Positions 2,948-49,281 of a stretch of DNA of 64,000 nucleotides are shown piece after piece. The notes under the pieces are model-generated. The model was not told the origin of the DNA, ran no database searches, and was given only the letters and a program-made list of their open reading frames with translations. This DNA is from Actinomyces sp. B33 (GTDB lineage: Bacteria > Actinomycetota > Actinomycetes > Actinomycetales > Actinomycetaceae). Within the stretch, counting starts at the first letter, position 1. Every line of letters begins with the position of its first letter. The stretch is from NCBI RefSeq assembly GCF_028437565.1, contig NZ_JAMRYR010000004.1, positions 248,001-312,000 on the forward strand, written 5' to 3'. The position numbers and the translations under genes are program-made.

Positions 2948-3137
2948 AGACCGCTCGGCGGCCTCGCCGGCGGATGCTCGACGAACCCCGTCTGATCCCT
3001 GCGGGTCTTCTGTGCGACAAGGTGCTCCAGATGCCGTCAGGACGTGCTGTCGCGACCGCTGCGCATGCCGAAGTCGATTCGGCGTCGATGAGCGCCGAGT
3101 AGTCTGAAGGCATTGACTGTCAATGAATGGAGAACCG

Positions 3138-4496
3138 ATGCCCAGAATGTTCGGTACCGACGGCGTGCGCGGCCTCGCCAATGATCTGCTGACCCCCAGC
3201 CTCGCCGTCCAGCTCGGCCAGGCGGCGGCGCGAGTCCTCACCGGAGGCCCCCCCTCGAGCGCATCGCGCACCGGTCGTCCCCGGGCCATCGTCGGACGCG
3301 ACACGAGGGCCAGCGGCGAATTCCTTGACCATGCGATCAGCGCCGGCTTGGCCTCGTCGGGAGTCGACGTCACCAGGGTCGGGATCCTCCCGACCCCTGC
3401 GATCGCCCACCTGACCGCCACGCAGGACATCGACCTGGGCGTCGTCATCTCCGCCTCCCACAACCCCTTCCAGGACAACGGGATCAAGTTCTTCGCCCGA
3501 GGCGGGTACAAGCTCGAGGACGCCGTCGAGGACGAGATCGAGTCGCTCATCGGGCGCGTCGACGACCTGCCGACCGGGGCCGGCGTCGGACGCGTCATCA
3601 AGGGGGAGACCGTCGCCGACCAGACCTACATCAACCACCTCGTCGACTCCGTCGGCACCGACCTGTCCGGTCTGAGGATCGTCGTCGACGCCTCCAACGG
3701 CGCCGCGAGCGCCGTCGGACCGGCCGCCCTGCGCGCCGCCGGCGCCGAAGTCATCGTCATCAACGCCTCGCCCGACGGCCTCAACATCAACGCCGACTGC
3801 GGATCCACCCACCCCGGGCGCCTCCAGAACTACGTGACCGCGGTCGACGCCGACATGGGCGTCGCCTACGACGGGGACGCCGACCGGTGCCTCGCGGTCG
3901 ACGCCGACGGCGCCCTCGTCGACGGGGATCAGATCATGGGACTGCTCGCCGTCGGCATGAAGGAGGACGGGACCCTGGGCTCTGACACCCTGGTCGTCAC
4001 CGTCATGAGCAATCTCGGCCTGATCCTCGCGATGAAGGAGCATGGCATCCGCACCGTCCAAACCGGTGTCGGCGACCGCTACGTCCTGGAGAAGATGCTC
4101 CAGGGGGGCTACACGCTCGGCGGCGAGCAGTCCGGGCACGTCATCGACACCCTCCATGCGACCACGGGCGACGGTGTTCTCACGTCGCTGAGGATCGCGG
4201 CGCGCATGAAGCGCACCGGCAAGTCCCTGGCCGAGCTGGCCGGGATCGTCACGCGCCTGCCCCAGACGCTCGTCAACGTCTCCGGCGTGGACAAGGCTTC
4301 GGCGGGCACCGACGCGCGTGTGCAGGAGGCGGTCGAAGCCGCTGAGGAGCAGCTGGGGCAGACGGGCCGCGTGCTGCTGCGCCCGTCGGGGACCGAGCCG
4401 CTCGTGCGCGTCATGGTCGAGGCTGCCACTCAGGAGCAGGCCGACGAGGTGGCTGGGCGTCTGGCTGACGTCGTCCGGGAGAGCCTGGCCCTGTAG
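3138..4496 (+). CDS. glmM: Phosphoglucosamine mutase GlmM
   Basis: 452 aa. Converts glucosamine-6-phosphate to glucosamine-1-phosphate on the route to UDP-GlcNAc for peptidoglycan. Visible are the N-terminal MPRMFGTDGVRG, the phosphoserine loop SASHNP (Ser about 107), the Mg-binding DGDADRC and the phosphate-binding RPSGTEPLVRV near the C-terminus. The ATG at 3138 has GGAG at 3129-3132 and gives the canonical start; the ATG at 3123 lacks a ribosome-binding site. A possible -10 TAGTCT is at 3100-3105. GlmS, the preceding enzyme, is encoded at 17427. The last 80 nt recur 11,062 bp downstream. Confidence 0.96.
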   Translation: MPRMFGTDGVRGLANDLLTPSLAVQLGQAAARVLTGGPPSSASRTGRPRAIVGRDTRASGEFLDHAISAGLASSGVDVTRVGILPTPAIAHLTATQDIDLGVVISASHNPFQDNGIKFFARGGYKLEDAVEDEIESLIGRVDDLPTGAGVGRVIKGETVADQTYINHLVDSVGTDLSGLRIVVDASNGAASAVGPAALRAAGAEVIVINASPDGLNINADCGSTHPGRLQNYVTAVDADMGVAYDGDADRCLAVDADGALVDGDQIMGLLAVGMKEDGTLGSDTLVVTVMSNLGLILAMKEHGIRTVQTGVGDRYVLEKMLQGGYTLGGEQSGHVIDTLHATTGDGVLTSLRIAARMKRTGKSLAELAGIVTRLPQTLVNVSGVDKASAGTDARVQEAVEAAEEQLGQTGRVLLRPSGTEPLVRVMVEAATQEQADEVAGRLADVVRESLAL

Positions 4497-4848
4497 TGGT
4501 GGGGGCGGTCTGGTCTCCGGTTCCCGTGGTCTCGGGTTCTCGTGGTCTTCCGATCCGCCCCTGAACGGGTCCTGCGCTGAGCGGGCTCGGTGCGTGGCGG
4601 TCGTGGCGTGTGAGCGGGCCTGGTGCGTGCGCCCCCCTGCCTATTGGGCCACGCTGTGCGTGAGTGGGCCCATGATGTGTGCGGTTTCCGCGCGTGAGCG
4701 CGCTTGACTACGCTGGCCGAGGCCGTTTTCTTCCGGACCTTGCGGTTTCCGCGTGTGAGCGGGGGCCGTGTGCGTGAATAAAACTGTGTGCGTGGGTTCG
4801 GCTGAAACTGTGTGTGCGTAGGCTCGGCGCGTGAATGCGCCGGTGCCT
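4417..4848 (+). repeat. Left direct repeat: glmM 3' end plus downstream GTG-rich module
   Basis: This segment begins in the last 26 codons of glmM and continues into non-coding DNA; it recurs at 15479-15864. Bases 4498-4640 are identical to 15560-15702. The coding part differs at 5 of 80 positions, 4 of them synonymous. From about 4650 the two copies diverge by indels but rejoin at the GTGTGCGT-GGTTCGG motifs and end at CGGTGCCT. Together with the right copy it brackets the glycopolymer island. Confidence 0.9.
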
Positions 4849-4950
4849 CGTCCTCCTCGTCTGCCAGCTTGTCCGCCCGCGGCCGGCGTTTCCCCGGGAT
4901 CCCGTCCACTGGGGGCGTTCCCGCCCATCCGTCCGTCCCAGGTGCCGGCG

Positions 4951-5012
4951 TTTCCTTCGAAAACGAATTTTTGGGCCTGTTTTTGGTGGGAAGTGTTCGT
5001 TTTCGGGGGAAA
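4951..5012. repeat. 62-bp hairpin repeat, copy 1
   Basis: Two 17-nt arms (4951-4967 and 4996-5012) flank a 28-nt loop. The inner 10 bp, CGAAAACGAA with TTCGTTTTCG, pair perfectly; the outer part has mismatches. Copies 2 and 3 have the same 17+28+17 architecture. Confidence 0.85.
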
Positions 5013-5051
5013 GCGTGGGGGGAGGCGGGCGTCGAGGAGACGGGAAACGCG

Positions 5052-5083
5052 TGCGGGGACGAGTCAGAGTCCGCCGGACGAGG
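5052..5083. repeat. 32-bp conserved intergenic segment, left copy
   Basis: Identical to 16020-16051. It follows the 62-bp hairpin after a GC-rich spacer in both places and forms the end of the roughly 200-bp repeat unit. Confidence 0.85.
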
Positions 5084-5101
5084 CCCGTGCGCCGACCGGG
5101 C

Positions 5102-5273
5102 ACGAGACGGTAGGGGGAGTGCGGGGCCGTGGGCGGGACGAGGCAGTCGGACGCGTGAGGCGTCGGGACGGACGCGGGCCTCGGGGTCGAGCGCGTGACA
5201 GCGTGCTCATGAGTCGTGGGGGAGCGTGGGGCCCGTGGGCGGGATGAGGCGGTTGGAGGCATGGGGCGTCGCC
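5102..5273. repeat. Degenerate tandem repeat, period about 107 bp
   Basis: Bases 5102-5166 and 5209-5273 align over about 65 nt with scattered substitutions; both contain CCGTGGGCGGGA followed by a GAGGC...GGCGTCG pattern. Two copies only, no coding potential seen. Confidence 0.5.
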
Positions 5274-5354
5274 GGACACCGGTCGCGGGGCGGCGAGGCG
5301 AGTGATCTACCGGTCATTCGAGGAGGGACGGGCGGTCGGCCGGGGCCCGTCTGG

Positions 5355-5360
5355 CACACT
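5355..5360 (+). promoter_or_regulatory. -10 box for leaderless mRNA of the cytidylyltransferase
   Basis: CACACT ends 6 nt before the GTG at 5367, the same geometry as the boxes before alr, nnr, tsaD and sdhC. The first base departs from the TANNNT consensus and no clear -35 is visible. Confidence 0.4.
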
Positions 5361-5366
5361 GGACCG

Positions 5367-5834
5367 GTGCGAGAACCAACGGAGCCCAAGGGGCCGATCA
5401 CCGGGTACGTGCCCGGCGGATTCGACATGTTCCACATGGGCCACCTCAACATCCTGCGCGCCGCGCGGCAGCGGTGCGACCGGCTCGTCGTCGGCGTGAC
5501 GACCGACGAGGCCCTCGAGCGGATGAAAGGGAGGCCCCCCGTGATCCCCCTCAAGGAGCGCTGCGACCTCGTGTCCGCGCTGCGATTCGTCGACGCGGTC
5601 GTCGTCGACCTCGATCAGGACAAGCGCCTGGCCTGGCGCCTCCAGCCCTTCGACGTCCTCTTCAAGGGGGACGACTGGAAGGGCACGGCGAAGGGCGCCA
5701 GGCTTGAGGCCGAGATGGCCGAGGTCGGCGCCGTCGTCGTCTACCTGCCCTACACCCCTTCGACCTCCTCGACGAAGCTGCGCCGCTTCATCTCGCCGGA
5801 GGACTTCGACGACGAGATCGAGGAGGGCCGATGA
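5367..5834 (+). CDS. TagD-like cytidylyltransferase (glycerol-3-phosphate cytidylyltransferase type)
   Basis: 155 aa. Nucleotidyltransferase with the HxGH motif (FDMFHMGH), the GDDW signature (FKGDDWKG) and a terminal TPSTSSTKLR loop equivalent to the ISTT motif. TagD-type enzymes join CTP to glycerol-3-phosphate or a similar polyol phosphate to give a CDP-activated precursor for teichoic-acid-like polymers. A GTG start at 5367 removes an unconserved N-terminal stretch and follows a -10-like box by 6 nt, suggesting leaderless translation. It overlaps the next gene, a CDP-alcohol phosphotransferase, by 4 nt. The exact alcohol phosphate is unknown. Confidence 0.82.
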   Translation: MREPTEPKGPITGYVPGGFDMFHMGHLNILRAARQRCDRLVVGVTTDEALERMKGRPPVIPLKERCDLVSALRFVDAVVVDLDQDKRLAWRLQPFDVLFKGDDWKGTAKGARLEAEMAEVGAVVVYLPYTPSTSSTKLRRFISPEDFDDEIEEGR

Positions 5835-6589
5835 CGCCCGACCCCAACGCCATCGACGCACTGCCCTGGTCGCAGCGCTTCCGCGCCTACCGCGAATCCC
5901 TCGCCTCGGCCCAGAAACCGGGGGACGGCGTGCCCGCCTACATGCGGTGGGTCAACCGCGGCGGGGCCCGACTCGTCGCGGCGTTCGCCGCGGCCTGCGG
6001 ATGGACGCCGAACCTCGTCACCGCGATCTCCGTCGCCCTGTCCGGACTCGGCCTGCTCCTGCTCGTCCTCCTCGAGCCGTCCTCCTGGACCGGGCTGCCG
6101 ATCGCCCTCCTGCTCGCCGCCGGATTCCTCCTCGACTCGGCCGACGGGCAGGTCTCCCGCGTCACCGGCGCGTCGTCGAGGACCGGGGAGTGGATCGACC
6201 ACGTCGCCGACGCGTTCCGATCCCCCGCCATCCACCTGTGCACGGCGACCGCCGTCGTCCTCCACAGGCCCGAGACGCCCTGGTTAGCGCCGGTCGCCCT
6301 CGTCTACGCGTGGGTCGCCTCCGGTCAGTTCCTCAGCCAGATCCTCGCCGAGCAGTTCGTGCGCGCCGCCGGGCGCGACCAGACCCGCGGCGGGACCCTG
6401 CGCTCCCTGATCCTCCTGCCCACCGACCCGGGCGTCCTGTGCTGGTCCTTCGCCCTGTGGGGGCTGACCGGGCCCTTCGCCATCGCCTACACCGCGCTCG
6501 CGACCGCCGCGCTCGCCCACAGCGCGATCTCCCTGTCCAGGCGCTACCGCGACCTGCGGGCCCTCGACGCCGCCCAAGCGGGGCGATGA
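5831..6589 (+). CDS. CDP-alcohol phosphatidyltransferase family membrane protein
   Basis: 252 aa. Carries the family signature D-x2-DG-x2-(A/S)R-x8-G-x3-D-x3-D as DSADGQVSR followed by GEWIDHVAD, with the two metal-binding aspartates in place. Several hydrophobic segments surround it (about 45-95 and 135-235). These enzymes move a phospho-alcohol or phospho-sugar from a CDP donor to an acceptor in the membrane. The ATGA overlap with the TagD-like gene suggests that this protein uses its CDP-linked product, in a surface polymer rather than housekeeping phospholipid. Confidence 0.85.
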   Translation: MTPDPNAIDALPWSQRFRAYRESLASAQKPGDGVPAYMRWVNRGGARLVAAFAAACGWTPNLVTAISVALSGLGLLLLVLLEPSSWTGLPIALLLAAGFLLDSADGQVSRVTGASSRTGEWIDHVADAFRSPAIHLCTATAVVLHRPETPWLAPVALVYAWVASGQFLSQILAEQFVRAAGRDQTRGGTLRSLILLPTDPGVLCWSFALWGLTGPFAIAYTALATAALAHSAISLSRRYRDLRALDAAQAGR

Positions 6590-6590
6590 C

Positions 6591-7505
6591 ATGCCCGACC
6601 TCAGCGTCATCCTCCCGGCCCGCGATTGCGAATCCACGATAGGCACGGCCGTCTCCTCCACCCTGCGGGCCATGCCCGCAGACGCCGAACTCGTCGTCGC
6701 CGACGACGCCTCGACGGACGCGACGGCCGAGAGGGCCTGTGCGGGCGCCACCCGCCGCGGCGGCGCCGTCGATCCGCGACTCCGCATCATCACGGCGACC
6801 CCGGGGGAGGGCGGAGTGGCGCGAGTCCTCTCCCAGCTCCTCGACGCCACCGACTCCCGGCTCGTCGCGCGCATGGACGGCGACGACATCTCCCTGCCCT
6901 CGCGCTTCGCGCGAGCCCTCGGCGCGATCGAACAAGGGGACGACATGGTCTTCACCCAGGTCGTCGAACTCGTCGGCCGCCTGCCCCGGCCCCGGGCGCC
7001 CTACGAGATCGCCCCCGACGAGATCGGCTGGCACCTCCTCCTGACCAACCCCCTGTGCCACCCGACGATGGTCTCCACCCGCGAGGCCCTCGACCGCGTC
7101 GGCGGCTACCGTCCAGTCCCGGCCGAGGACTACGACCTGTGGATCCGATCGGCCCACGCGGGCGCCGCCATCCGCAGGCTCGCCGCATGGGGACTGGTCT
7201 ACCGGATCCACCCGGCCCAGGTCACCGCCTCCTCCTCGTGGCGCGCCTCCTCATGGGACGACCCCGACCAGGCGCGCGCCTTCGCCGACCTGTCCGAGAG
7301 CCTCACCGGTGAGAGGCTGCCGCGCCTCGTCTCCCTCGTCGGCCTGCCCGCAGCCGAGCGGGAGGACGCCCTCACCCGATTCGAAGCGGCGATCGCCCCC
7401 GGAATCGCTCGCCTCGGCGGGCTCCGCGCGACCCGCCTGACCCGGCGGCTCCGCGCCCGCATCGCCTGGGCGCGCGCCGCCCGAGCCGACGGAGGACCCC
7501 GATGA
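6591..7505 (+). CDS. GT2-family glycosyltransferase
   Basis: 304 aa. A GT-A fold is indicated by the N-terminal LSVILPARDCESTIGTAV, the nucleotide-binding VVADDASTDAT and the DxD-type ARMDGDDISLPSRF. A second acidic stretch PAEDYDLWIRSA resembles the catalytic ED motif. It probably transfers a sugar from a nucleotide-sugar to the growing lipid-linked glycopolymer at the cytoplasmic face. The start lies 1 nt after the upstream stop codon. Sugar specificity cannot be read from the sequence. Confidence 0.88.
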   Translation: MPDLSVILPARDCESTIGTAVSSTLRAMPADAELVVADDASTDATAERACAGATRRGGAVDPRLRIITATPGEGGVARVLSQLLDATDSRLVARMDGDDISLPSRFARALGAIEQGDDMVFTQVVELVGRLPRPRAPYEIAPDEIGWHLLLTNPLCHPTMVSTREALDRVGGYRPVPAEDYDLWIRSAHAGAAIRRLAAWGLVYRIHPAQVTASSSWRASSWDDPDQARAFADLSESLTGERLPRLVSLVGLPAAEREDALTRFEAAIAPGIARLGGLRATRLTRRLRARIAWARAARADGGPR

Positions 7506-7570
7506 GCCCCGCCGCCGCCCGAACCCGCGGTCGGCTCGCGCCGGCCCCGATCAGGCAGGAGGACCGATGA
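7502..7570 (+). CDS. 22-codon coupling micro-ORF between two glycosyltransferases
   Basis: Its ATG overlaps the stop of the upstream glycosyltransferase (ATGA at 7502-7505), and its own TGA overlaps the ATG of the next one (7567-7570). It also carries AGGAGG, the ribosome-binding site of the next gene, near its 3' end. The peptide is Arg/Pro/Ala-rich with no known domain. It may serve only to keep ribosomes moving between the two genes; it could equally be chance. Confidence 0.3.
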   Translation: MSPAAARTRGRLAPAPIRQEDR

Positions 7571-8814
7571 CCGGCCCCGATCAACCTCAGACCGACCCCC
7601 TGGCCTCCTCGATCTGGCACGTCGATCGGACGACCCCCGACGTCGTCCGGATCTCGGGAGGATCGAACGACCCGCGGGCCCTCGTCGTCGTCCGCGACCA
7701 CCGCCGCGTCTCCGCCATCATCCCCCTGGGGCCCACCGGCGCCCCGGAGAGGGCCCCCGAAGTCCTCGCGGCCCCCCCGGCGCCCCCGCGCCCGTGGGAC
7801 GAGGGGGCGGGGGCGCGCCTGAGCGCCACCGTCGTCCTGTGCACGACCGGCCGATGCGACGTCCTCCCACGGTCCGTGGAATCCGTCCTCGCCCAGGACC
7901 ACCCCGGCTTCCGGCTCGTCGTCGTCGACAACGCGCCGGCCAGCGGGCGCACGCGGGCAGCCCTCGCCGGCATCGACGACGACCGCATGACGATCGTCGA
8001 GGCCCCCAGGGCGGGGCTCTCGCGGGCCCGCAACAGGGGAGTGCTCGCCGCCACCGGCGACGTCGTCGCCTTCACCGACGACGACGCGCTCGTCGACCCC
8101 CACTGGCTCACCGCCCTTCTCGACCCCCTCGCCGCCGACCCCGCGGTGGGCGCGACGACCGGCGTCGTCCTCGCCGCCGAACTCGCCACCGCCGCGCAAC
8201 GCTGGTTCGAGTCGCGCGGCGGCTTCCCCAAGGACCTCGTCCCCCGCGTGTGGAGCGTCGGCTCGCCGCCCGCCGGCGCCGCCGGACTGGGGGACGCGGG
8301 CGAGGGAGGCCCCCTCTACCCGGTGACGACCGCCCGCGTCGGGGCGGGCGTCTGCATGGCGATCCGCCGCGACGCCCTCGCCCAGGCGGGGCCCTTCGAC
8401 CCGGCCCTCGGCGCGGGCACCCCCACCCGCGGCGGGGAGGACCTCGACATGTTCGCCCGCATCCTGCGCCTGGGCCGCCCGATCGTCCACACCCCGGACG
8501 CGCTCGTCCACCACCGCCACCGCCGCGACCCCGCCGGCCTGGACGCCCAGATACGGGGCAACGGGTCCGGCATGGCCGCGCTCCTCGTCAAGTCCGCCCT
8601 CGAACGGCCCTCGACCCTCCTCGTCCTCGCGTCGCGCGTCCCCGCGATCCTCACGCGCCTGAGCCCAGGATCGGAGCGCGTCAGCGGCGCCGACGACGAC
8701 GTCCCCGCATCCCTCACCGCCTCGGAGATCAAAGGGTTCCTCGAAGGGCCCCTCCTCTACGCGAAATCCCGTCGCGCCAACCGGCCGGCGCCGTCGAGGG
8801 GGCGACGAGCGTGA
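7567..8814 (+). CDS. GT2-family glycosyltransferase with N-terminal extension
   Basis: 415 aa. The GT-A core starts near residue 78 (LSATVVLCTTGRCDVLPRSV), with the nucleotide-binding VVVDNAPAS, the DxD-like AFTDDDALVDPHW and a late GGEDLDMFARIL motif. The 75-residue N-terminal part (SIWHVDR..., VVVRDHRRVS) is a small conserved-looking region seen in some actinobacterial GT2 proteins but has no assigned role. AGGAGG precedes the ATG. It probably acts with the preceding transferase on the same polymer. Confidence 0.88.
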   Translation: MTGPDQPQTDPLASSIWHVDRTTPDVVRISGGSNDPRALVVVRDHRRVSAIIPLGPTGAPERAPEVLAAPPAPPRPWDEGAGARLSATVVLCTTGRCDVLPRSVESVLAQDHPGFRLVVVDNAPASGRTRAALAGIDDDRMTIVEAPRAGLSRARNRGVLAATGDVVAFTDDDALVDPHWLTALLDPLAADPAVGATTGVVLAAELATAAQRWFESRGGFPKDLVPRVWSVGSPPAGAAGLGDAGEGGPLYPVTTARVGAGVCMAIRRDALAQAGPFDPALGAGTPTRGGEDLDMFARILRLGRPIVHTPDALVHHRHRRDPAGLDAQIRGNGSGMAALLVKSALERPSTLLVLASRVPAILTRLSPGSERVSGADDDVPASLTASEIKGFLEGPLLYAKSRRANRPAPSRGRRA

Positions 8815-8845
8815 CGGCCGCGCACGGCAGACGGCCGGGGGCCCG

Positions 8846-9469
8846 TCAGCAGGTCGGGTCCTCGGCGAACCCCTGCTTCTCGATCTTCCAGGCGCCGTCC
8901 TCGAGAACGAGGAAGAAGAGGGACAGGGCCCGGTCCGACGTCCGCTCCAGGCGCGTCCCCGCCTCGTTGACGATCGTCACGCCCGACGAGTCCACGCACG
9001 CCTGGAGCGTGATCCGCGTCCCGTCGTCGGAGGCCTCGACGAGCACCGGGTCCTCGATGGACGGCGCCCCCTCCTGGTGGAGCCCCGTGTCGTCGAACTC
9101 CTCCGCCTGCGCCGCGTACTCCTCCAGGGAGAAACCCGTGAGAATGCCCGACAGGTCCGTCGCCCGTCCCGATGCCGGATCGGCCAGGCCCTCCGAGACG
9201 GTCGCCAGCGCCCATCCGACCTGCTCGGCCGCCTGCTCCTGGGACAGGGGCCCCGACACGTCGCCGGTGTTGGCCGGGCCGGCCGATTCGGGGGCCGTCG
9301 TCTCGGGAATCCCCGATTCCGGATCGGAGACGCCCGATCCGGAGGCAGCGTCGTCGACGCCGGCCGGGCGCGACAGCACCCACGCCCACCATCCGACGAG
9401 GAGCGCGACGACGACGAGCGCGACGAGGACGAGGAGGAGCAGGGAACGACGGGAGGGGGAGGAGTGCAT
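8846..9469 (-). CDS. Membrane-anchored protein with NTF2-like extracytoplasmic domain
   Basis: 207 aa. A single hydrophobic helix at about 10-30 (LLLLVLVALVVVALLVGWWAWVL) is followed by a Ser/Pro/Glu-rich linker (35-75) and a globular domain. The C-terminal segment ALSLFFLVLEDGAWKIEKQGF is typical of NTF2/SnoaL-like or Mce-associated folds. There is no lipobox. It points against the surrounding genes, converging with the second GT2 gene and diverging from the flippase gene. Function unknown; an envelope accessory role is an inference from location. Confidence 0.7.
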   Translation of the reverse strand: MHSSPSRRSLLLLVLVALVVVALLVGWWAWVLSRPAGVDDAASGSGVSDPESGIPETTAPESAGPANTGDVSGPLSQEQAAEQVGWALATVSEGLADPASGRATDLSGILTGFSLEEYAAQAEEFDDTGLHQEGAPSIEDPVLVEASDDGTRITLQACVDSSGVTIVNEAGTRLERTSDRALSLFFLVLEDGAWKIEKQGFAEDPTC

Positions 9470-9538
9470 GAGCGTACTCTTTCACGCGAGGGGCGAAGGA
9501 CGTGGAGACACGAGGATACTCCAGGCCGGGGGCCGCGG

Positions 9539-11038
9539 ATGAGCGGGGATCGCACCGACAGGAGGGGCCTGGCCCGCTCGGGGGCGCTCGGATTCGCCGG
9601 AGCCGCGGCGTCGGCGGGGCTCGGATTCGCCCTGACGGTCGTCCTGGCCCGGATGCTCGGCCCTGCCGGATCGGGCGTCGTCACCCAGGCGACCGGAGTA
9701 TTCGCCGTCGTCATGGGCCTGACGAAAGTCGGCCTCGACTCGACCTCGATCTACCTCCTCCCCCGCCTGCGCATCGACGCCCCCGAGCAGATCCGCGCGT
9801 GCCTGACGTTCATGGCGGCGACGACGATCGGCGTCTCCGCCGCGACGGTCCTCGTCCTCGAAGCGGCCGCCCCGCTCATCTGGTCGGCGCGAGAACCCGA
9901 GGTCGCTGAGGCGGTCCGCGCCGTCGTGTGGCTCGTCCCCCTCGGCTCGCTGGCCGTGGTCGCCGCGGCCGCGCTGCGGGCCGTGGGGAGCATGCGCGAG
10001 TACGTCGTCGTCCAGAACATCGCCCTGCCCGGCTCGCGCCCTCTCCTCGTGGCGGCCGCCGCCGCGCTGTCCGGCTCGCTCGCGCTCGTCGCCGTGGCGT
10101 GGGCCCTGCCGTTCCTCGTCGCCCTCGTCGCGTCGTGGACGCTGCTCCTGCGGCGCCTGCCCGCATCGGCCTCGTCGGCGCGCTGGCCCGACGCCCCCCG
10201 AAGGCGCGAGATCCTCTCCTTCGCCCTGCCCCGGACCCTGACCGCGGGATTGGAGCAGGGGCTCGTCTGGCTCGACGTCCTCCTCGTCGGCGCGCTCGCG
10301 GGCAGCGCCGCCGCGGGCGTCTACGCCGGGGCGAGCCGGTTCATCCAGGCCGGGCTGATCGTCGACACGGCCCTGCGCGTCGTCGTCTCCCCCCGGTTCT
10401 CCCGCCTCCTGCACCTCGGCAGGCTCGACGAGCTCGATCGCCTCTACTCGACGGCGACGACCTGGCTCGTCCTCTTCGCCACGCCGATCCACATCCTCAT
10501 GGCCGTCTTCGCCCCTGCTCTCATGCGCCTGCTCGGCGACGAGTTCGCCTCCGGATCGGCCGTCCTCGTCGTCCTGTGCCTCGGCGCCGTCGTGACCTTC
10601 CTCGCGGGCAACATCCACTCGCTGCTCATCATGAGCGGGCGCTCCGGGTGGGCCGCCGTCAACAAGGCCGTCGTCCTCGTCGTCAACGTCGTCGGCAACA
10701 TCGTCCTGGTCCCGCGCCTGGGGATGATCGGGGCCGCGGCGGCCTGGGCCGCGTGCATGGTCCTCGACGCGTTGATGGCCGGGGTCCAGGTCATCGCCTT
10801 CACCGGCCTGAGGCCCAGGATCGGCCGGGCGGTGCTCCCGCTTCTCGGAGGGCTCGTCTCGGTGGGGGCCCCGAGCGCCGTCGCCGCCCTCATCGCGGGG
10901 CGGGACTCCTTCACGGGCCTGCTCATCGGGACGGCCGCCTCGGCGGCATGCTTCGCGCTCATGTGCAGAGTGATGCGCAGGCCGCTCCACCTGTCGGGGC
11001 TGGGGGCGGTCTTCTCCGCGCGGCGGGACGGGGGGTGA
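9539..11038 (+). CDS. Polysaccharide flippase (Wzx/MATE-like, MOP superfamily)
   Basis: 499 aa, almost entirely hydrophobic with roughly 12-14 predicted membrane helices, starting with LGFAGAAASAGLGFALTVVLARMLGP, the usual N-terminus of polysaccharide flippases. MOP-family flippases translocate undecaprenyl-linked glycans across the membrane. I chose the ATG at 9539; the open frame extends upstream across the opposite-strand gene, which is not credible. No polymerase or initiating transferase is encoded in this island; both types occur at 47.6-52.0 kb. Confidence 0.85.
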   Translation: MSGDRTDRRGLARSGALGFAGAAASAGLGFALTVVLARMLGPAGSGVVTQATGVFAVVMGLTKVGLDSTSIYLLPRLRIDAPEQIRACLTFMAATTIGVSAATVLVLEAAAPLIWSAREPEVAEAVRAVVWLVPLGSLAVVAAAALRAVGSMREYVVVQNIALPGSRPLLVAAAAALSGSLALVAVAWALPFLVALVASWTLLLRRLPASASSARWPDAPRRREILSFALPRTLTAGLEQGLVWLDVLLVGALAGSAAAGVYAGASRFIQAGLIVDTALRVVVSPRFSRLLHLGRLDELDRLYSTATTWLVLFATPIHILMAVFAPALMRLLGDEFASGSAVLVVLCLGAVVTFLAGNIHSLLIMSGRSGWAAVNKAVVLVVNVVGNIVLVPRLGMIGAAAAWAACMVLDALMAGVQVIAFTGLRPRIGRAVLPLLGGLVSVGAPSAVAALIAGRDSFTGLLIGTAASAACFALMCRVMRRPLHLSGLGAVFSARRDGG

Positions 11039-11077
11039 CGGCGTCGCGGTGGCGGCTCACACAATCCCGTCGACGGC

Positions 11078-11104
11078 TTGAAAACGAGCACGCATCCATA
11101 AGAT
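11078..11104 (+). promoter_or_regulatory. Promoter of the fibrinogen-like protein gene
   Basis: TTGAAA (11078-11083) and TAAGAT (11099-11104) are spaced 15 bp apart, short for sigma-70 but with good boxes. Because the -10 overlaps an in-frame ATG at 11103, it argues for translation from the ATG at 11172. Confidence 0.5.
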
Positions 11105-11171
11105 GATTCGCTCGACTAGCAACAAACATACCCGGCGCTCCCGTGGGCGCTCGACAACATTGAGGACGTTC

Positions 11172-14100
11172 ATGCCCCTTCGCCGCCGCGCACGCGCGCT
11201 CGCCGCCGTCCCGCTCGCCGCACTGGCCGCACTGACAGCCCTGGCCATCGCCCCGGTTCAGGCCAGGGCCGACGACTCCCCCCACGCCCAGACGATCGCC
11301 CGCGACGGGTCGAGCGCCGCGACGGCCGCGGCATCGTGCTGGCAGATCAAGAGGGACTCCCCGCAGTCGCCCTCGGGCGCCTACTGGCTCCAGACGCCGA
11401 CGATGAAGGCGCCTCAGCAGTTCTTCTGCGACCAGACGACCGATGGGGGCGGATGGGTCCTCATCGGCCGCGGCCGCGAGGGATGGGAGACGTGGACCCA
11501 GGGCAAGGGCGACCCCGCCGCCCTGACCCGTCGCGAGAGGACGCCAGCCGACTTCGGCACCGTCCAGCTGTCGACCGAGACCGTCAACGGCCTCCTCGGC
11601 GGCGGCGCCGTGTCGTCCCTGAACGAGGGGCTGCGCGTCGTCCGCGCCCAGGACAGCCGGGGCTCCTCGTGGCAGACGGTCGACATGGTCCTGCCGAAGA
11701 TGAAGGACTTCGTCTGGCCCTTCAAGTCGGCCCACCCCGTCAAATACCGCTACAACAACAGGGGCTACTGGTACGAGGGCCGCATCTGGGACACCTTCGG
11801 CAGCGATCAATCGTTCAACGGGGTCAACATGACGACGTCGACGGCCCGCAGCGGGATCCTCGGCTTCGCCTACGGCAAGTACGCCTCCGCCCGAGGATGG
11901 TGGTCCGACACGAGCTCTAACACGACGTTCCTGTACAACGTCGGCCGGGCGCTCATGCCCTACGCCGAGGCGTACATCCGCCCGCAGATCTCCTCGGACG
12001 ACCCGGGCTTCCAGCGCATCGCCGATTCGGGGACTCCGGCGACCACGGTGACCGCCGCCGTCTCCGAATTCGCCGCCCCCTCCGAGTGGGGCGTCTCCGG
12101 CAACCTCAACGGTTCCGTCGCCGAGGGATCGATCCAGGTCCAGGCGTTCGAGGAGATCGGCTCGACGATGTTCGTCGGGGGCAATTTTACCGGCGTCAAA
12201 AAGGGGGAGAAGGGGCGGGAGACCCGCAGTTCGGGGCTGGCCGCCTTCGATGTCGCCACCGGCGCCTGGAACGGGTCGATGACGTGGGAGTTCAACAACC
12301 AGGTCAAGGACCTCGTCGAACTGCCCAACGGCAGGCTCCTCGTCGTCGGGGACTTCACGACGGTCAACGGCGAGAGCCACCGCGGCACCGTCCTCATCGA
12401 TCCCGCCACCGGCGCCATCGACCCGGCTTGGGACCTCCAGATCGTCAATAACCTGTCCTCCGGGCGCATCTCGGTCAAGAGCGCGTCCGTATCCGGCGAC
12501 TACATCTACCTCGGCGGCTCCTTCACCCACCTGTCCGGCCAGGGCGCCAACAAGGTCTACGGCCGCAACGCCGCGCGCGTCTCGCTGACGGGCAAGCCCG
12601 ACCGCTCGTGGAACCCCGAGTTCAACGGCGCCGTCCTGGCGGGCACGGCCGACCCCGAGCAGTCCTACTACTACGCCGCCGGGCACTTCACGAGGTCGAT
12701 CAACACCACCGCGAAGAACGCGACCCGCGTCTCGACCGAGGCGGGCGCCCGAGTCGACACCTCCTTCTCCTTCGTCCCGTCCTACCACCGGGGGACCTAC
12801 CAGCAGGATGTCAAGGTGTTCGGCGACCGCGTCTACTTCGGCGGCGCCCAGCACAGCCTGTTCGGCTACACCCGATCGGATATGAGGCGGGTCTCCGGGT
12901 CGATCACCATGAACAACGGCGGCGATGTCCAGGCGATCACGACGGCGCAGAACGGCGTCCTGTACGCCTCGTGCCACTGCTCCGACTTCTCCTACGAGGA
13001 CGCGACCAAGTTCTACTTCTACGACGACTTCAGCCGGGCCGATGAGATCCGCTGGGTCGGCGCCTGGGACGGCGCGACCGGCAAGCAGATCGGATGGGCC
13101 CCCTACCGGCTGAACTCGACCCGGTCGACCGGCGCCTGGGCCCTTGAAACGGACTCGAACGGCTCGCTGTGGGCGGGCGGCGATTTCAACCGGTCGTTCA
13201 CCTCCCTCACGTCGAATCAGTGGAGCGGCGGGTTCGTCCGGTTCCCGGCCCGCGACCAGAGCGCTCCCGAGGCGCCCTCGCTCGTGCGCAGCACCGCCAG
13301 CGACGCCGCGTCCATCACCCTCGCGTGGAACGGCGTCCCCGACGCGGCCGGGTACGAGATCCTGCGGGACGACCGCCCCGTGGCGGTCTCGAAGACCACC
13401 ACCGCGCAGGTCCCCCGGGGCGGCGAGAACCGGTACTTCGTCCGCGCCGTCGACGCCGCGGGCAACCGCTCGGCGTCGTCGCCGGTCTACTCGGCCCCGG
13501 CGGCGGGGCAGGCCGACGAGAACAACCCCGTCCTCGTCGAGGACTCCGCCGAGTGGAAGTACCTGTGGGCGACCGACGCGGTCCCCGCCGACTGGAACGC
13601 CCCCGGCTTCGACGACTCCGCCTGGACGACCGGCACCGCGCCGATCGGCTACGGCGATTCGGGCCTGGGCACCGTCCTGACCCCCGGTGCCGCGGCGACC
13701 CGTCCGGTGACGACCTACTTCCGCAAGACGATCTCGCTCGACGACCGGACCAGGGCCGGGGGCATCTCGATCTCCTACACGGCGGACGACGGAGCCGTCG
13801 TCTACGTCAACGGCCGGGAAGTCTCCCGCACCCGCATCGACGACGGGCCGGTCGCCCAGGGGACCCACGCGAACGCCGCCGTGTCGGCCTCACGTGCCCG
13901 TCAGGACAGGACGACGGTCGCCGTCCCCTCCTCCGGCCTCGTCGTCGGCGAGAACGTCATCGCCATCGAGACGCACCTCAACTACCGCGGCTCGAAGACG
14001 ATGACGATGCAGGCCACCGTCTCCACGGCAGCTCCGGCCGCGCTGGCCGCCGCGCAGGACGACCCGTCGGAACCCGTCGAGCAGGACGCCGCCCCCTCCG

Positions 14101-14705
14101 GCGAGGACTCGGATGAGGCCGCCGACGCCGAGGCGCCCGGCGCCGGGCGCCCGCAGGGGCAACCGCTATCGGCGATCGACGCCACGGGCATCGCATCCGG
14201 CGATGTCGTCGCCTCCGGCGAGACGTGGTCCTACTGGGTCGAGAAGGACGCGCCCGCCCCCGACTGGACCACCACCGGCGACATCAGCGGCTGGAGGACC
14301 GGTGCCGGGCCGATCGGCTGGGGGCACTCCTCGGTCGTCACCGCCCTGGACATCCCCCGTTCGGATCGGGCCGCCACCTCCTACTTCGCCCGCGATATCG
14401 ACCTCGGTGACCTGTCCGATTCGGCTGAACTCACCCTGAGCGTCCGTGCCGACGACGGCGCCGTGGTGTACGTCAACGGGCATGAGGTCGGCCGCCAGCG
14501 CCTCGCCGAGGGCAAACCGGTCACCCACACGACCCGGGCGACCTCGTCGGTGAACACCCGATTGGCGATCAACGCGCCGCTGACGATCACGGTGCCCGCG
14601 CGATACCTCGTCGACGGGGTCAACCGGATCGGCGTCGAGGAGCACGTCGGCTACCTGTCGACCCCGTCGATGACCTTCGATCTGTCGGCTTCCCTGAGCC
14701 GATGA
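11172..14705 (+). CDS. Secreted fibrinogen-C-terminal-like surface protein with FN3 and twin galactose-binding-like domains
   Basis: 1177 aa. The ATG at 11172 has GAGGA 6 nt upstream and starts a typical signal peptide (basic RRRARA, hydrophobic core, ending near QARA). Next comes a fibrinogen-related domain (SCWQIKRDS..., FFCDQTTDGGGWVLIGRG; about 55-280), then a delta-60/propeller-like repeat region (FVGGNFTGV, VVGDFTTVNGE, YLGGSFTHLSG, WAGGDFNRS; about 310-690), an FN3-like domain (about 700-780), and two similar beta-sandwich modules (WKYLWATD...TTYFRKTISL...DDGAVVYVNGREVSR and a second with DDGAVVYVNGHEVGR) separated by a Glu/Asp/Pro linker. No LPXTG or membrane anchor was found at the C-terminus. 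Probably a secreted lectin-like or matrix-binding protein; the ligand is unknown. Confidence 0.85.
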   Translation: MPLRRRARALAAVPLAALAALTALAIAPVQARADDSPHAQTIARDGSSAATAAASCWQIKRDSPQSPSGAYWLQTPTMKAPQQFFCDQTTDGGGWVLIGRGREGWETWTQGKGDPAALTRRERTPADFGTVQLSTETVNGLLGGGAVSSLNEGLRVVRAQDSRGSSWQTVDMVLPKMKDFVWPFKSAHPVKYRYNNRGYWYEGRIWDTFGSDQSFNGVNMTTSTARSGILGFAYGKYASARGWWSDTSSNTTFLYNVGRALMPYAEAYIRPQISSDDPGFQRIADSGTPATTVTAAVSEFAAPSEWGVSGNLNGSVAEGSIQVQAFEEIGSTMFVGGNFTGVKKGEKGRETRSSGLAAFDVATGAWNGSMTWEFNNQVKDLVELPNGRLLVVGDFTTVNGESHRGTVLIDPATGAIDPAWDLQIVNNLSSGRISVKSASVSGDYIYLGGSFTHLSGQGANKVYGRNAARVSLTGKPDRSWNPEFNGAVLAGTADPEQSYYYAAGHFTRSINTTAKNATRVSTEAGARVDTSFSFVPSYHRGTYQQDVKVFGDRVYFGGAQHSLFGYTRSDMRRVSGSITMNNGGDVQAITTAQNGVLYASCHCSDFSYEDATKFYFYDDFSRADEIRWVGAWDGATGKQIGWAPYRLNSTRSTGAWALETDSNGSLWAGGDFNRSFTSLTSNQWSGGFVRFPARDQSAPEAPSLVRSTASDAASITLAWNGVPDAAGYEILRDDRPVAVSKTTTAQVPRGGENRYFVRAVDAAGNRSASSPVYSAPAAGQADENNPVLVEDSAEWKYLWATDAVPADWNAPGFDDSAWTTGTAPIGYGDSGLGTVLTPGAAATRPVTTYFRKTISLDDRTRAGGISISYTADDGAVVYVNGREVSRTRIDDGPVAQGTHANAAVSASRARQDRTTVAVPSSGLVVGENVIAIETHLNYRGSKTMTMQATVSTAAPAALAAAQDDPSEPVEQDAAPSGEDSDEAADAEAPGAGRPQGQPLSAIDATGIASGDVVASGETWSYWVEKDAPAPDWTTTGDISGWRTGAGPIGWGHSSVVTALDIPRSDRAATSYFARDIDLGDLSDSAELTLSVRADDGAVVYVNGHEVGRQRLAEGKPVTHTTRATSSVNTRLAINAPLTITVPARYLVDGVNRIGVEEHVGYLSTPSMTFDLSASLSR

Positions 14706-15436
14706 ACGCGCCCCGGTCCGAGCCCCCGGCGGGCGATGGGGACGATGCCCTCTATCGTGCCGTCGCCCGTCGGGCTCTCGAACCCGGGACTCGAACGACC
14801 TGGATCAACCACTGGTCGCTCCTTCACGCCGATTGGGAATACCTGGCCCGCATGGACCTCATCGGTGTCGACGGGACGCTCTTGCAGATGGCCCTGGGAC
14901 GCTCGGGGCACGGGGTCGGCAGGAGCTCGGCGGACCTGGTCCTTCCTCATGTCTTCGACCTGCTCGACGAGGAGGCGCGGATCGCCCTCGTCGGCGCCGA
15001 GCCGGGAGTCGCCGACCGGGTCGCCCAACGGCTACCGCGCTTCGACGTCATGTGCGTTGACGGCTATTCCGGTTTGACGGCCCTGAAACAGGACCCTCGG
15101 AGGATCCTCGACTTCTCGCCCCGACTCGTCGTCGTCGGGCTGGGCGCGGGTCTCCAGGAGCGCGTCGGCTCGATGATCCACGAATGGCTCCCGGACGCAT
15201 CGGTGTGCACGGCCGGGGGGTGGCTCGATCAGTACGCGCGCTCGGAGCGCTATTTCCCGCGCTGGGTTCACCGGGCGCGTCTCGGGTGGGCGTGGAGGAT
15301 CGCTCACGAGCCCCGGCGGCTCATCGGGCGCTACACCGTCGAGGCCGTCGGGTTCCTCGCCTCCAGCGGCGGCCTGATCCGAAGACTGGAGGGGCTCGGC
15401 GATTTCGACGGGATCGGGCTGCGCGTCCGCTCCTGA
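14702..15436 (+). CDS. WecG/TagA/CpsF-family glycosyltransferase
   Basis: 244 aa. Family motifs are visible: an N-terminal DLIGVDGTLL, the mid-protein VDGYSGL, VVVGLGAGLQER, AGGWLDQYA and the C-terminal EPRRLIGRYTVEA. These GT26 enzymes (TagA, WecG) add N-acetylmannosamine-type sugars to lipid-linked GlcNAc at the start of teichoic-acid or polysaccharide linkage units. The ATGA overlap (14702-14705) couples it to the fibrinogen-like gene. With the TagD-like gene at the other end of the island it supports a teichoic-acid-like product. Confidence 0.85.
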   Translation: MNAPRSEPPAGDGDDALYRAVARRALEPGTRTTWINHWSLLHADWEYLARMDLIGVDGTLLQMALGRSGHGVGRSSADLVLPHVFDLLDEEARIALVGAEPGVADRVAQRLPRFDVMCVDGYSGLTALKQDPRRILDFSPRLVVVGLGAGLQERVGSMIHEWLPDASVCTAGGWLDQYARSERYFPRWVHRARLGWAWRIAHEPRRLIGRYTVEAVGFLASSGGLIRRLEGLGDFDGIGLRVRS

Positions 15437-15478
15437 CACGGCGGCCGACGCCCGGCGAGATCGGCGCGGGACGCCCGA

Positions 15479-15558
15479 TCGAGGCTGCCACTCAGGAGCG
15501 GGCCGATGAGGTGGCCGGGCGTCTGGCCGATGTCGTCCGGGAGAGCCTGGCCCTGTAG
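15479..15558 (+). pseudogene. glmM 3'-terminal relic (26 codons)
   Basis: These 80 nt encode the C-terminal residues of GlmM in frame with its stop (EAATQERADEVAGRL onward). Compared with the intact gene there is one amino-acid change (Q to R) and four synonymous changes. No start, ribosome-binding site or upstream glmM sequence is present. The mostly synonymous divergence suggests it came from a functional glmM allele rather than a recent local duplication. Confidence 0.85.
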
Positions 15559-15864
15559 CGGTGGGGGCGGTCTGGTCTCCGGTTCCCGTGGTCTCGGGTT
15601 CTCGTGGTCTTCCGATCCGCCCCTGAACGGGTCCTGCGCTGAGCGGGCTCGGTGCGTGGCGGTCGTGGCGTGTGAGCGGGCCTGGTGCGTGCGCCCCCCT
15701 GCGTAGTGGGCCACGCTGTGCGTGAGTGGGCCTGGTGTGTGCGGGCCACTGCGTGTGTGCGGTTTTCGCGTGTGAGCGGGTCGTCTGCATGAATAAAAAC
15801 TGTGTGCGTAGGTTCGGTTAAAACTGCGCGCGCGTAGGCTCGGCGCGTGAATGCGCCGGTGCCT
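15479..15864 (+). repeat. Right direct repeat: copy of glmM 3' end and downstream module
   Basis: Counterpart of 4417-4848. It starts at a TCGAGGCTGCCACTC boundary and ends at CGGTGCCT. Offset from the left copy is 11,062 bp over the first 224 bp. The 143 nt from 15560 to 15702 are identical to the left copy; further on, an indel shortens this copy. Confidence 0.9.
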
Positions 15865-15921
15865 GAGCCCGCTGATTCGTGATCCCGCTGGCGTCTGATC
15901 CCGTCGCTCGGGGCCTCCCGC

Positions 15922-15983
15922 TTTCCCCCGAAAACGAACATTTCCCACTTTATCCGGTAGGAAACATTCGTTTTCGGGGGAAA
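15922..15983. repeat. 62-bp hairpin repeat, copy 2
   Basis: Arms 15922-15938 and 15967-15983 form a perfect 17-bp inverted repeat (outer TTTCCCCCG, inner AAAACGAA). The 28-nt loop contains TTTATCCGGTAGGAAA. It is the most regular copy and starts 196 bp before copy 3. Confidence 0.9.
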
Positions 15984-16019
15984 TAGTGCGGGAGAAAACG
16001 GGGGAAGCGAGGGGAGGCA

Positions 16020-16051
16020 TGCGGGGACGAGTCAGAGTCCGCCGGACGAGG
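16020..16051. repeat. 32-bp conserved intergenic segment, right copy
   Basis: Identical to 5052-5083. It separates hairpin copy 2 from the leader of hairpin copy 3. Confidence 0.85.
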
Positions 16052-16117
16052 TCCCGGCATTTCCCTGGGACCCCGTCCACCGGGGACGTTCCCGCTCACC
16101 CGCTCGAGGTCCCGGCA

Positions 16118-16179
16118 TTTCCCTCGAAAACGAATTTTTTGCGCTTTATTCGGTAGGAAATGTTCGTTTTCGGGGGAAA
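16118..16179. repeat. 62-bp hairpin repeat, copy 3
   Basis: Arms 16118-16134 and 16163-16179 pair over 17 bp with one G-T type mismatch. The loop contains TTTATTCGGTAGGAAA, nearly the loop of copy 2. It ends about 115 bp after the 3' end of coaA, which is transcribed towards it. Confidence 0.88.
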
Positions 16180-16295
16180 GCATGGGGGGGGGGAGGCGGG
16201 CGTCGAGGAGAGGGGAAAGCATGCGGGGGAGGTCAGTGCCGGGAAAGGGCGCGCTGAGGAGGCGAGGGAGCGCTGAGGGATCGCGCGACGGGGCG

Positions 16296-17270
16296 CTACT
16301 CCTTGCGCAGGGCCAGGGACTCCACGCGATGACCCGAGCCCTTGCGGAAGATCATCGTCGCGCGCTCGCGGGTCGGCGCGATGTTCTCGCGCAGATTCGT
16401 CAAATTGATCGCCGACCAGATCATCCGGGCCGTCGCCTCCGCCTCCTCGTCCGTCAACCCCGCATACGTGCGGAAGAACGAGTCCTCGCGGGAGAACGCC
16501 GTGCGACGCAGCGTCAAGAAACGATCGACGTACCACTGCTCGATATGAGCGGGATCCGCATCGACGTAGATCGAGAAATCGAAGTAGTCCGACACCGCGA
16601 CCGACACCGACCCGGCCTGGACCCGAGCAGGCTGCAAGACGTTGACCCCCTCGACGATGAGGATGTCGGGCTGGCGGACATGGGTGTACTCGCCCTCGAC
16701 GACGTCGTAGACGACATGGGAGTACACGGGGGCCGCGACATCGGCCACCCCCGCCTTGACGGCCGATAGGAACGCGAGCAGCCCCGCCCGGTCGTAGGAC
16801 TCCGGGAACCCCTTCTTCGCCATGAGGCCGCGCTCCTCCAACACCGCATTGGGGTACAGGAACCCGTCCGTCGTCACCAGGTCGACGCGCGGCGTGCGCT
16901 CCCACCGGGACAACAGGAGCTGCAAGAGCCTGGCCACCGTCGACTTGCCGACCGCGACGGACCCCGCGATCCCGATGACGAACGGGGTCGGCGCCGCCTC
17001 CGCCTCCCCCAGGAAGGCGCGCCGCTCGTCGGCCGTGCGCCTCCTCCCGTCGACGTAGAGCTGAAGCAGAGCCGACAGCGGCCGGTAGATCGCGTCGACC
17101 TCGGTCATGTCGATCGGGTCCCCGAGGGAGGCGATCCGGGTGACGTCCTCCTGCGTCAGCGGCAGCGGAGTCCGCTCGACGAGGCGATCCCACCGGGCCC
17201 GGTCGAACACGGCGTAGGGGGACAGGGGAGGCGGGGGAGTCAACGGATCCACCAGGGCATTGTCCCCCAT
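16296..17270 (-). CDS. coaA: Type I pantothenate kinase
   Basis: 324 aa, close to the usual 310-320. Phosphorylates pantothenate, the first step of coenzyme A synthesis. Visible are the P-loop GIAGSVAVGKST, VDLVTTDGFLYPN, the substrate region MAKKGFPESYD, VYSHVVYDVV and ILIVEGVNVLQ. The ATG at 17270 (MGDNALVDP) gives the most natural N-terminus; an upstream ATG at 17327 would add 19 residues. It is divergent from glmS across about 156 bp. Confidence 0.93.
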   Translation of the reverse strand: MGDNALVDPLTPPPPLSPYAVFDRARWDRLVERTPLPLTQEDVTRIASLGDPIDMTEVDAIYRPLSALLQLYVDGRRRTADERRAFLGEAEAAPTPFVIGIAGSVAVGKSTVARLLQLLLSRWERTPRVDLVTTDGFLYPNAVLEERGLMAKKGFPESYDRAGLLAFLSAVKAGVADVAAPVYSHVVYDVVEGEYTHVRQPDILIVEGVNVLQPARVQAGSVSVAVSDYFDFSIYVDADPAHIEQWYVDRFLTLRRTAFSREDSFFRTYAGLTDEEAEATARMIWSAINLTNLRENIAPTRERATMIFRKGSGHRVESLALRKE

Positions 17271-17413
17271 CGAAGCCCCGCGCGCGTGCCCGTGCCGGCC
17301 GGCGTCGAGCGCGGCCGCGAATCGCATCGGCCGCGATCCACGGGCTCATGGGCGCAAATGCGCCGCTTCGCGCGCGCCGGTGCTTCGCGAGGCCGCCGGT
17401 GCCCGCCGTGTGC

Positions 17414-19465: not shown

Positions 19466-19617
19466 TGATGCTTGTGATCCTCCTCGAGGATCTGTCGTCT
19501 GGGCAATGAGGCCCAGGTGCTCAATCTGCTGGACCCTGTCGATGGATCCGGTCATCAAAGCGGCCGTCGGGCGAAGACGGGCGCTCACACACCCGAAGAA
19601 CGACGGAAGAGGATGAC

Positions 19618-20865: not shown

Positions 20866-20870
20866 TCGCG

Positions 20871-22403: not shown

Positions 22404-22420
22404 ACGAAGGAGGAAATACA

Positions 22421-23449: not shown

Positions 23450-23478
23450 TCCTCCATCCACATGAAAGGAACAGTCCC

Positions 23479-49027: not shown

Positions 49028-49104
49028 GCCTGTCCTCTCTCCTCTGTATCGACCGGTCGGCGCGGCGGGGCCCCGGGTCGTTCCATCTTTGAAATTGCGG
49101 TCGG

Positions 49105-49110
49105 AGTCTA
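49105..49110 (-). promoter_or_regulatory. -10 box of the sugar transferase operon
   Basis: TAGACT on the minus strand (49110-49105) lies 77 nt before the ATG at 49027. The expected -35 position lies close to the 28-bp palindrome. Confidence 0.5.
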
Positions 49111-49142
49111 GCAGGGCGGGACGCGCGGGCACTGCCCGTCGG

Positions 49143-49170
49143 GCGCGGGGATCGCCGGCGATCCCCGCGC
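49143..49170. promoter_or_regulatory. 28-bp perfect palindrome in the divergent polysaccharide promoter region
   Basis: Left half GCGCGGGGATCGCC, right half its exact reverse complement, with no spacer. It lies 6 bp upstream of the -35 of the plus-strand Wzz-like gene and just behind the minus-strand promoter, so a dimeric regulator here could control both transcripts. Confidence 0.75.
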
Positions 49171-49176
49171 GGCCCT

Positions 49177-49205
49177 TCTGACATCCGATGGGCCGATACT
49201 AGGAT
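49177..49205 (+). promoter_or_regulatory. Promoter of the wzz-like/wzy-like genes
   Basis: TCTGAC (49177-49182) and TAGGAT (49200-49205) with 17-bp spacing. Transcription would begin about 70 nt upstream of the start codon at 49282. Confidence 0.55.
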
Positions 49206-49281
49206 CGGTCGCACGTTTGGGGAAGGGCCTTATCGCCCGCCCCCTCGTCCACGCACGCCGATCGATAAGGGAAACCCGCTG

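Follow-up and report, generated by a model that had tools for sequence, protein, structure and literature searches.

Genomic islands of the integrase type carry a copy of the target gene's 3' end at their distal side, and the gene itself is kept intact. Here we describe a surface-glycan gene cluster in Actinomyces sp. B33 that resembles such islands in that the 3' end of glmM is repeated at its distal side and glmM is intact, but that differs from them in three respects: no recombinase was recognized in it, the repeat is far longer than a gene-end attachment site, and the composition of the cargo is not foreign. The cluster lies between glmM and coaA in a stretch of 64,000 nucleotides (nt), hereafter the window, at positions 248,001-312,000 of contig NZ_JAMRYR010000004.1. 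The genome, labelled G000 in our comparisons, is a draft assembly of 2.28 Mb in 11 contigs, in which the window is C6:248001-312000. We hold with moderate confidence that the cluster is the genus's own surface-glycan locus at a new address, which it would have reached by a duplicative insertion that needed no recombinase.

Other described systems share parts of this arrangement. In the capsule locus (cps) of Neisseria meningitidis, with its regions D and D' (PMC6619384), a surface-glycan locus likewise coexists with resident genes (galE and rfb) that are present a second time in partly truncated form, an arrangement absent from capsule-null relatives. There, however, the second copy comprises several genes and is argued to be at least partly foreign, and inversions occur, whereas the G000 repeat spans non-coding DNA and no more than 80 coding nt, and the locus is otherwise at home elsewhere in the genus. 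Minimal mobile elements (defined by Saunders and Snyder, 2002, as cited in PMC3082526) are also different whole-gene cassettes between two conserved genes, with no mobility genes; unlike that system, ours is seen in a between-species comparison, and the G000 cassette has a direct repeat of a flanking gene at its borders, as no other cassette at the site does. Replacement flexible genomic islands (PMC4033161) involve exchange of surface-glycan clusters without integrase hallmarks, and the differences at their borders are mostly synonymous, as they are here; their contents change at a fixed place, whereas our locus has conserved content, a changed place and a border repeat. A literature search returned no title or abstract start on this locus or on glmM as an insertion site of this kind, which does not exclude that such a report exists; glmM is mentioned in PMC9376610 and PMC10871549, but in different contexts.

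The original prediction, made from the letters of the window, held that the last 80 nt of glmM and the adjoining non-coding DNA recur just past the last gene of the cluster. This was confirmed: positions 4417-4670 and 15479-15732 align without gaps over 254 nt (97% identical, 8 differences) at a start-to-start distance of 11,062 nt, and a further block matches at 4780-4848 and 15796-15864 (91%). The repeat is longer than first noted, with a gapped alignment joining 4417-5086 to 15479-16054 (76% over 672 columns, E ~1e-139), and homology continues past the glmM stop codon for 590 nt in the left copy and ~500 nt in the right. Positions 4883-5058 of the left copy align a second time, to 16054-16228 (82%). 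A chance origin of the repeat is excluded. In a search of the G000 genome itself, the glmM-tail portion was present at these two sites only. The repeat and the gene from which it departs are as follows.

3123-4496, plus strand: glmM, intact, whose final 80 nt (4417-4496) open the left repeat (NCBIfam glmM equivalog over cut-off; Pfam PGM_PMM I-IV).
4417-5086, unstranded: left repeat, defined by alignment, with the glmM tail, GT-rich non-coding DNA and a palindrome at ~4950-5025.
4498-4640 (right copy 15560-15702), unstranded: 143-nt block identical in both repeats, defined by alignment.
15479-16228, unstranded: right repeat, defined by alignment, with a truncated glmM tail (15479-15558), non-coding DNA, a palindrome and, at 16054-16228, a further, incomplete palindrome unit.

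The eight differences are unevenly placed: five lie in the 80 coding nt, one immediately follows the stop codon, and two come after a further 143 nt that are free of differences; past the 254 nt, the two copies diverge with gaps. In the coding part, four of the five affect third codon positions, and one replaces Gln by Arg. Under an even spread of eight differences, a difference-free run of at least 143 nt has a probability of ~0.01. The pattern suggests either constraint or a tract of recombination or conversion. Folded as RNA, the 143-nt block was no more stable than shuffled sequences (z 0.00; 90/200 as good), and an Rfam scan of 4300-16400 gave zero matches at the gathering threshold. The 80-nt tails were uninformative for telling a native from a donor copy: compared with 23 other genomes, the left tail differs at 18-35 and the right at 18-34 of 80 sites, and the two differ from each other at 5. 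When the right repeat was used as a DNA query across the genus, there were six weak matches outside G000, in six genomes, five of them at glmM ends and one elsewhere in G008; the latter, to the right joint (query 24-80, 77%, E 7e-5), was not regarded as meaningful. An exact 32-nt pattern had 0 matches in viral contigs, and a near-mode search of plasmids and phages gave zero matches.

The site was compared across 35 genomes of the genus including G000, with one genome per species. Each of the 35 has both glmM and coaA, and the region between them was compared in 33 of the 34 others; the junction is broken by contigs in G030 (1/34), whose two genes are on different contigs and which entered neither the region comparison nor the trees. 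It had been predicted that some relatives would have glmM directly before coaA and others a different island at the same site, and both arrangements were found. The site is empty in 14/34 genomes (glmM-coaA gap 62-637 bp), holds a small insert in 3/34 (1.1-2.5 kb gap) and holds a large one in 16/34 (8.9-19 kb gap), the large inserts having a common gene set for sugar use. The large block of G006 encodes a LacI-type regulator, a GH2 beta-galactosidase, a solute-binding protein, two permeases and a 1255-amino-acid (aa) protein with cell-wall-binding repeats, together with a BNR (sialidase-like) protein and a major facilitator superfamily transporter that are present in 6/16 large-insert genomes. 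Two of the large-insert genomes, G007 and G008, have coaA turned round with respect to glmM, on the far side of the sugar-use block. None of the 19 inserts in other genomes, of which 16 are large and 3 small, carries the glmM repeat, and homologues of the G000 cluster genes were found neither in the 33 other glmM-coaA regions of the genus (E 1e-5) nor, for 80 named loci, in the sequence that follows glmM to a distance of at most 10 kb (E 1e-8). Different gene sets lie between the same two conserved genes across species, and the G000 cassette is without mobility genes. A complete lack of empty or exchanged sites among relatives had been named as the outcome that would speak against exchange; at the species level, both kinds of site exist.

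In a draft of 11 contigs, the arrangement might in principle be an assembly error that fused two loci at a repeat. The two copies differ, and glmM and coaA are neighbours in relatives too; a simple assembly error is therefore unlikely. The DNA between the repeats (the island), both repeats and both flanks also lie on a single 394 kb contig, and we give an error of this kind next to no credence.

Eight genes make up 9,859 of the 10,392 nt between the repeats, and the widest gap is 271 nt. They are listed here with the unique DNA that precedes them and the right-hand neighbour.

5087-5366, plus strand: unique DNA from the left repeat to the first island gene, carrying an upstream motif common to the G011 and G034 clusters (in both comparisons, 0/300 shuffles reached its score).
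5367-5834, plus strand: TagD/RfaE-like nucleotidyltransferase (start chosen by us; the longest open reading frame (ORF) is 5226-5834).
5831-6589, plus strand: CDP-alcohol phosphotransferase (Pfam PF01066).
6591-7505, plus strand: GT2 glycosyltransferase a (Pfam PF00535).
7567-8814, plus strand: GT2 glycosyltransferase b (Pfam PF00535).
8846-9469, minus strand: 207-aa protein that is conserved in the relatives' clusters; Pfam and NCBIfam gave no match.
9533-11038 (start approximate), plus strand: Wzx-type flippase, the sole copy found in G000 (Pfam PF13440, PF01943).
11103-14705, plus strand: 1200-aa protein with a fibrinogen-like GGGW domain (NCBIfam NF040941).
14702-15436, plus strand: WecG/TagA-type glycosyltransferase, the last island gene (Pfam PF03808).
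16296-17327, minus strand: coaA (type I pantothenate kinase), the right neighbour, whose 3' end faces the glmM 3' end (NCBIfam panK_bact over cut-off; Pfam PF00485).

The right glmM fragment begins 42 nt after the wecG stop codon. The expectation that only envelope-glycan genes lie between the repeats was nearly right: glycan genes are present, but so are the 1200-aa GGGW protein and the 207-aa protein without a family match. The 1200-aa protein has one copy in G000 and two tandem copies in many relatives. No integrase gene was recognized among the eight island genes by Pfam or NCBIfam, and eight intergenic or minus-strand ORFs compared with PHROGs gave no integrase and one weak match, to a family with function unknown; these scans bear out the statement of the original prediction that no integrase is visible. 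The four tyrosine-recombinase (PF00589) matches of the G000 genome are on C1, C4 and C5, and the island is on C6. As a separate observation, the unique DNA before the first island gene holds a short tandem-like duplication (5123-5165 and 5229-5271, 84%).

The cluster has a usual home in the genus, between purU and glyA. The flippase had a match in 22/35 genus genomes, with one copy each, and in 19 of the 21 other carriers (G001, G002, G005, G006, G007, G008, G011, G013, G015, G018, G020, G021, G023, G024, G027, G028, G031, G032 and G034) the ordered cluster lies between these two genes. In G033, it is just past glyA, and in G030, it is on a 6.2 kb contig where its placement is cut off. These counts rest on the flippase search of the 35 genomes and not on a family sample of 151 genomes, in which some genus members are not listed and which contained 11 genomes with a WecG match and 10 with a match to the 1200-aa protein. 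A homologous cluster is also present in G152, a genome of another genus. At the usual home, no edge repeats were detected in 9/10 genomes tested; the cluster edges of G152 have a weak repeat (79 nt, 72%).

In G000, purU (C6:367317-368180) and glyA (C6:368361-369641) are separated by ~181 bp that contain no cluster gene. In G006 as in G000, both gene names rest on NCBIfam matches over cut-off, and a ZTP riboswitch upstream of glyA (RF01750, 55.3 bits) is the only element recognized in the G000 gap. The cluster is also missing from purU-glyA in G003 (408 bp), G004 (193 bp) and G009 (1.36 kb of other DNA), none of which gave a flippase match. The region upstream of tagD is common to G000, G011 and G034, with a 19-nt match to G011, and this shared motif indicates that upstream signals travelled with the cluster.

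On the same contig, glmM and purU-glyA of G000 are ~116 kb apart, an arrangement that would suit a tandem duplication of ~116-130 kb, reaching from the glmM tail to where the cluster ends, with later deletions that took out most of the extra copy as well as the original cluster. Such a duplication would account, without a recombinase, for the glmM fragment 42 nt past the wecG stop. It would require at least three events, however, and no clear purU or glyA remnant was found beside the island: short GC-rich matches were numerous there, and the best of them covered 27-28 nt (89%, E 6e-4 and 2e-3). We therefore consider this course of events improbable.

The wide distribution of the cluster also bears on a classical genomic island, in which a tyrosine recombinase would have inserted the block at the glmM 3' end with restoration of the gene and later loss of the recombinase gene. 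The distal repeat of a gene 3' end, the intact glmM and the empty site in 14/34 relatives are what such an island would leave, but the repeat extends well past the gene instead of being limited to an attachment core, and the gaps (at most 271 nt) hold neither a recombinase gene nor room for one. The PHROGs comparison and the location of the tyrosine-recombinase matches on other contigs argue in the same direction, as does the cargo, a genus locus whose GC content, the sole measure of composition used, is not foreign (1-kb windows: island 0.67-0.77, flanks 0.67-0.75). An integrase island was rejected as the principal explanation because of the excessive length of the repeat, the lack of a recombinase and the genus cargo, and we regard it as unlikely. 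The idea that a foreign accessory block had entered by site-specific integration at a gene end was not upheld, given a genus locus with flank-like GC and a repeat that runs 590 nt past the stop codon. Elsewhere in the window, past glmS (~19500-24000), GC drops from ~0.70 to 0.58-0.61, a sharper break than any in the island.

The six joined cluster proteins of G000 are 69% identical to those of G034, 66% to G011, 60% to G028 and G152, and 66-69% to nine genomes of the G005/G006/G007/G008 group; the joined purU, glyA and coaA proteins are 82-87% identical to those of eleven genomes. G000 branches deep in both the cluster and the core tree. Support is low to moderate, and the two trees do not conflict strongly, a pattern that fits vertical inheritance with relocation. 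The glmM gene has another history. The G000 protein is 86-90% identical to those of G003, G004, G009, G011, G028 and G034 and 84-87% to those of Actinomyces of another genus, and only 64-69% to those of the other 28 genus genomes, whereas rplM, rpsI and coaA follow the genus. In a glmM tree that did not include G030, the seven sequences (G000 and these six) nest with 7/13 Actinomyces (98/86), apart from the other 6. The glmM of these seven genomes is a single-gene replacement at the same locus, probably derived from Actinomyces.

In a different account, the cluster was lost at purU-glyA and then re-acquired at glmM-coaA, from another strain or species, by homologous exchange in the flanking core genes, in the manner of a minimal mobile element or replacement island. 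Junction contents differ among species, glmM itself has been swapped between genera in this clade and its neighbours rpsI, rplM and coaA have not, and the right and left glmM tails differ mostly at third positions; mostly synonymous differences are known from the borders of exchanged islands (PMC4033161). No sampled genome has the cluster at glmM-coaA, however, so there is no known donor, and a plain double crossover in the flanks would leave no direct repeat. We view this exchange as possible, although not probable.

Because homology extends 590 nt past the stop codon and the island has neither a recombinase gene nor room for one, a recombinase-free insertion-duplication is favoured. The cluster and its upstream motif, at home between purU and glyA, would have been placed between glmM and coaA in the G000 lineage by an event that left a second ~0.6 kb copy of the target (the glmM tail and downstream DNA) on the far side. 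This could have been a single crossover (Campbell-type) of a circle carrying the glmM tail or, alternatively, a replication template switch to the cluster with a return ~0.67 kb upstream of the departure point; either route would give the order glmM, left repeat, cluster, right repeat and coaA in one step. The purU-glyA copy would have been lost, or replaced by an empty allele, in a second event. The cluster may have moved within the lineage or may have been re-delivered by a near relative, two histories that would look alike here. RecA-dependent recombination between the repeats would release a circle of 11.06 kb, delete the sole flippase copy found and restore the glmM-coaA junction; the excision circle of ~11.06 kb that was predicted to leave an intact glmM is, by this arrangement, structurally possible. 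That the repeat arose by insertion-duplication, by which route it did so, and that excision can take place at present are what we infer from the sequence.

Several points weigh against a relocated genus locus. A copy event alone does not explain why purU-glyA is empty, and a second event is required. With one genome per species, the comparison is without conspecific strains. Divergence between the repeats is uneven, at 5/80 coding nt and 0/143 with numerous gaps thereafter; hence their age is ambiguous, and the third-position differences (4/5 in the coding part) hint that the right tail may derive from a functional glmM of another strain. With tree support low to moderate, the cluster may be an old acquisition from an unsampled relative. 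Finally, no recombinase was found in the island, with serine recombinases and other mobile genes not searched for genome-wide. A bolder and less probable reading is that replication by copy-and-return moved the whole glycan operon without a recombinase, that the overshoot duplicated ~0.6 kb of the target, and that the resulting repeat made a locus fixed in the genus excisable by RecA, its loss then switching off the polymer at low frequency.

Both repeats also contain a near-perfect palindrome, with two copies in the right one. It occurs in ~40 places in G000 and, in the window, at ~4950-5025, 15920-15985 and 16115-16185; as a segment of 60-95 nt inside the repeat (query ~530-646), it makes up the remainder of the 42 genome matches listed in G000. 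Folding of the three palindromes in the repeats is much more favourable than that of shuffled sequences (z -4.5, -5.8 and -7.2), and no palindrome match was found in the 34 other genus genomes in the DNA search with the right repeat. The element may be like a miniature inverted-repeat transposable element (MITE) or like a repetitive extragenic palindromic (REP) sequence; an origin from REP sequences and their associated transposases (REP/RAYT) was dropped on finding zero Y1_Tnp matches in G000. The palindrome was also considered as the driver of the insertion and set aside: the duplicated glmM tail and GT-rich DNA are outside it, so the repeat is not explained by the palindrome alone. Near 294.4 kb on C1 of G000, a palindrome copy adjoins what by eye appears to be a clustered regularly interspaced short palindromic repeat (CRISPR).

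The island holds a flippase and three glycosyltransferases, one of them of the WecG/TagA type, and is likely to specify part of a surface polymer of the Wzx/Wzy type whose genes are split between two loci. In G006, the cluster has two additional genes, GNVR (Wzz-like) and Wzy_C, both just below Pfam cut-offs. Counterparts of these genes, which relatives keep inside the cluster, are in a second glycan locus of G000 (47588-52049), which comprises Bac_transf (47588-49132), a GNVR protein just below the Pfam cut-off (49282-50550) and a Wzy_C homologue (~50655-51902). The latter has no Pfam match of its own and is 47% identical to the G006 protein, itself just below the cut-off. Judged by spacing, the purU-glyA cluster of G011 is also without the two genes, and a Wzy homologue is found elsewhere in that genome. 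A 2009-aa ORF (41559-47588, minus strand) adjoins the second glycan locus of G000 and looks by eye like a repeat-rich surface protein. The flippase match is missing in 13/35 genus genomes, which shows that the genus tolerates its absence.

A surface-glycan locus is usually regarded as a fixed address at which contents are exchanged; in this case it is the address that differs, the content being conserved and the scar visible. A gene-end repeat and an empty site in relatives, taken alone, are not proof of a foreign, integrase-borne island. The locus offers a natural case in which to ask whether insertion-duplication can produce gene-end repeats, which are often read as scars of an integrase, and whether a wall polymer becomes reversible through such a repeat.

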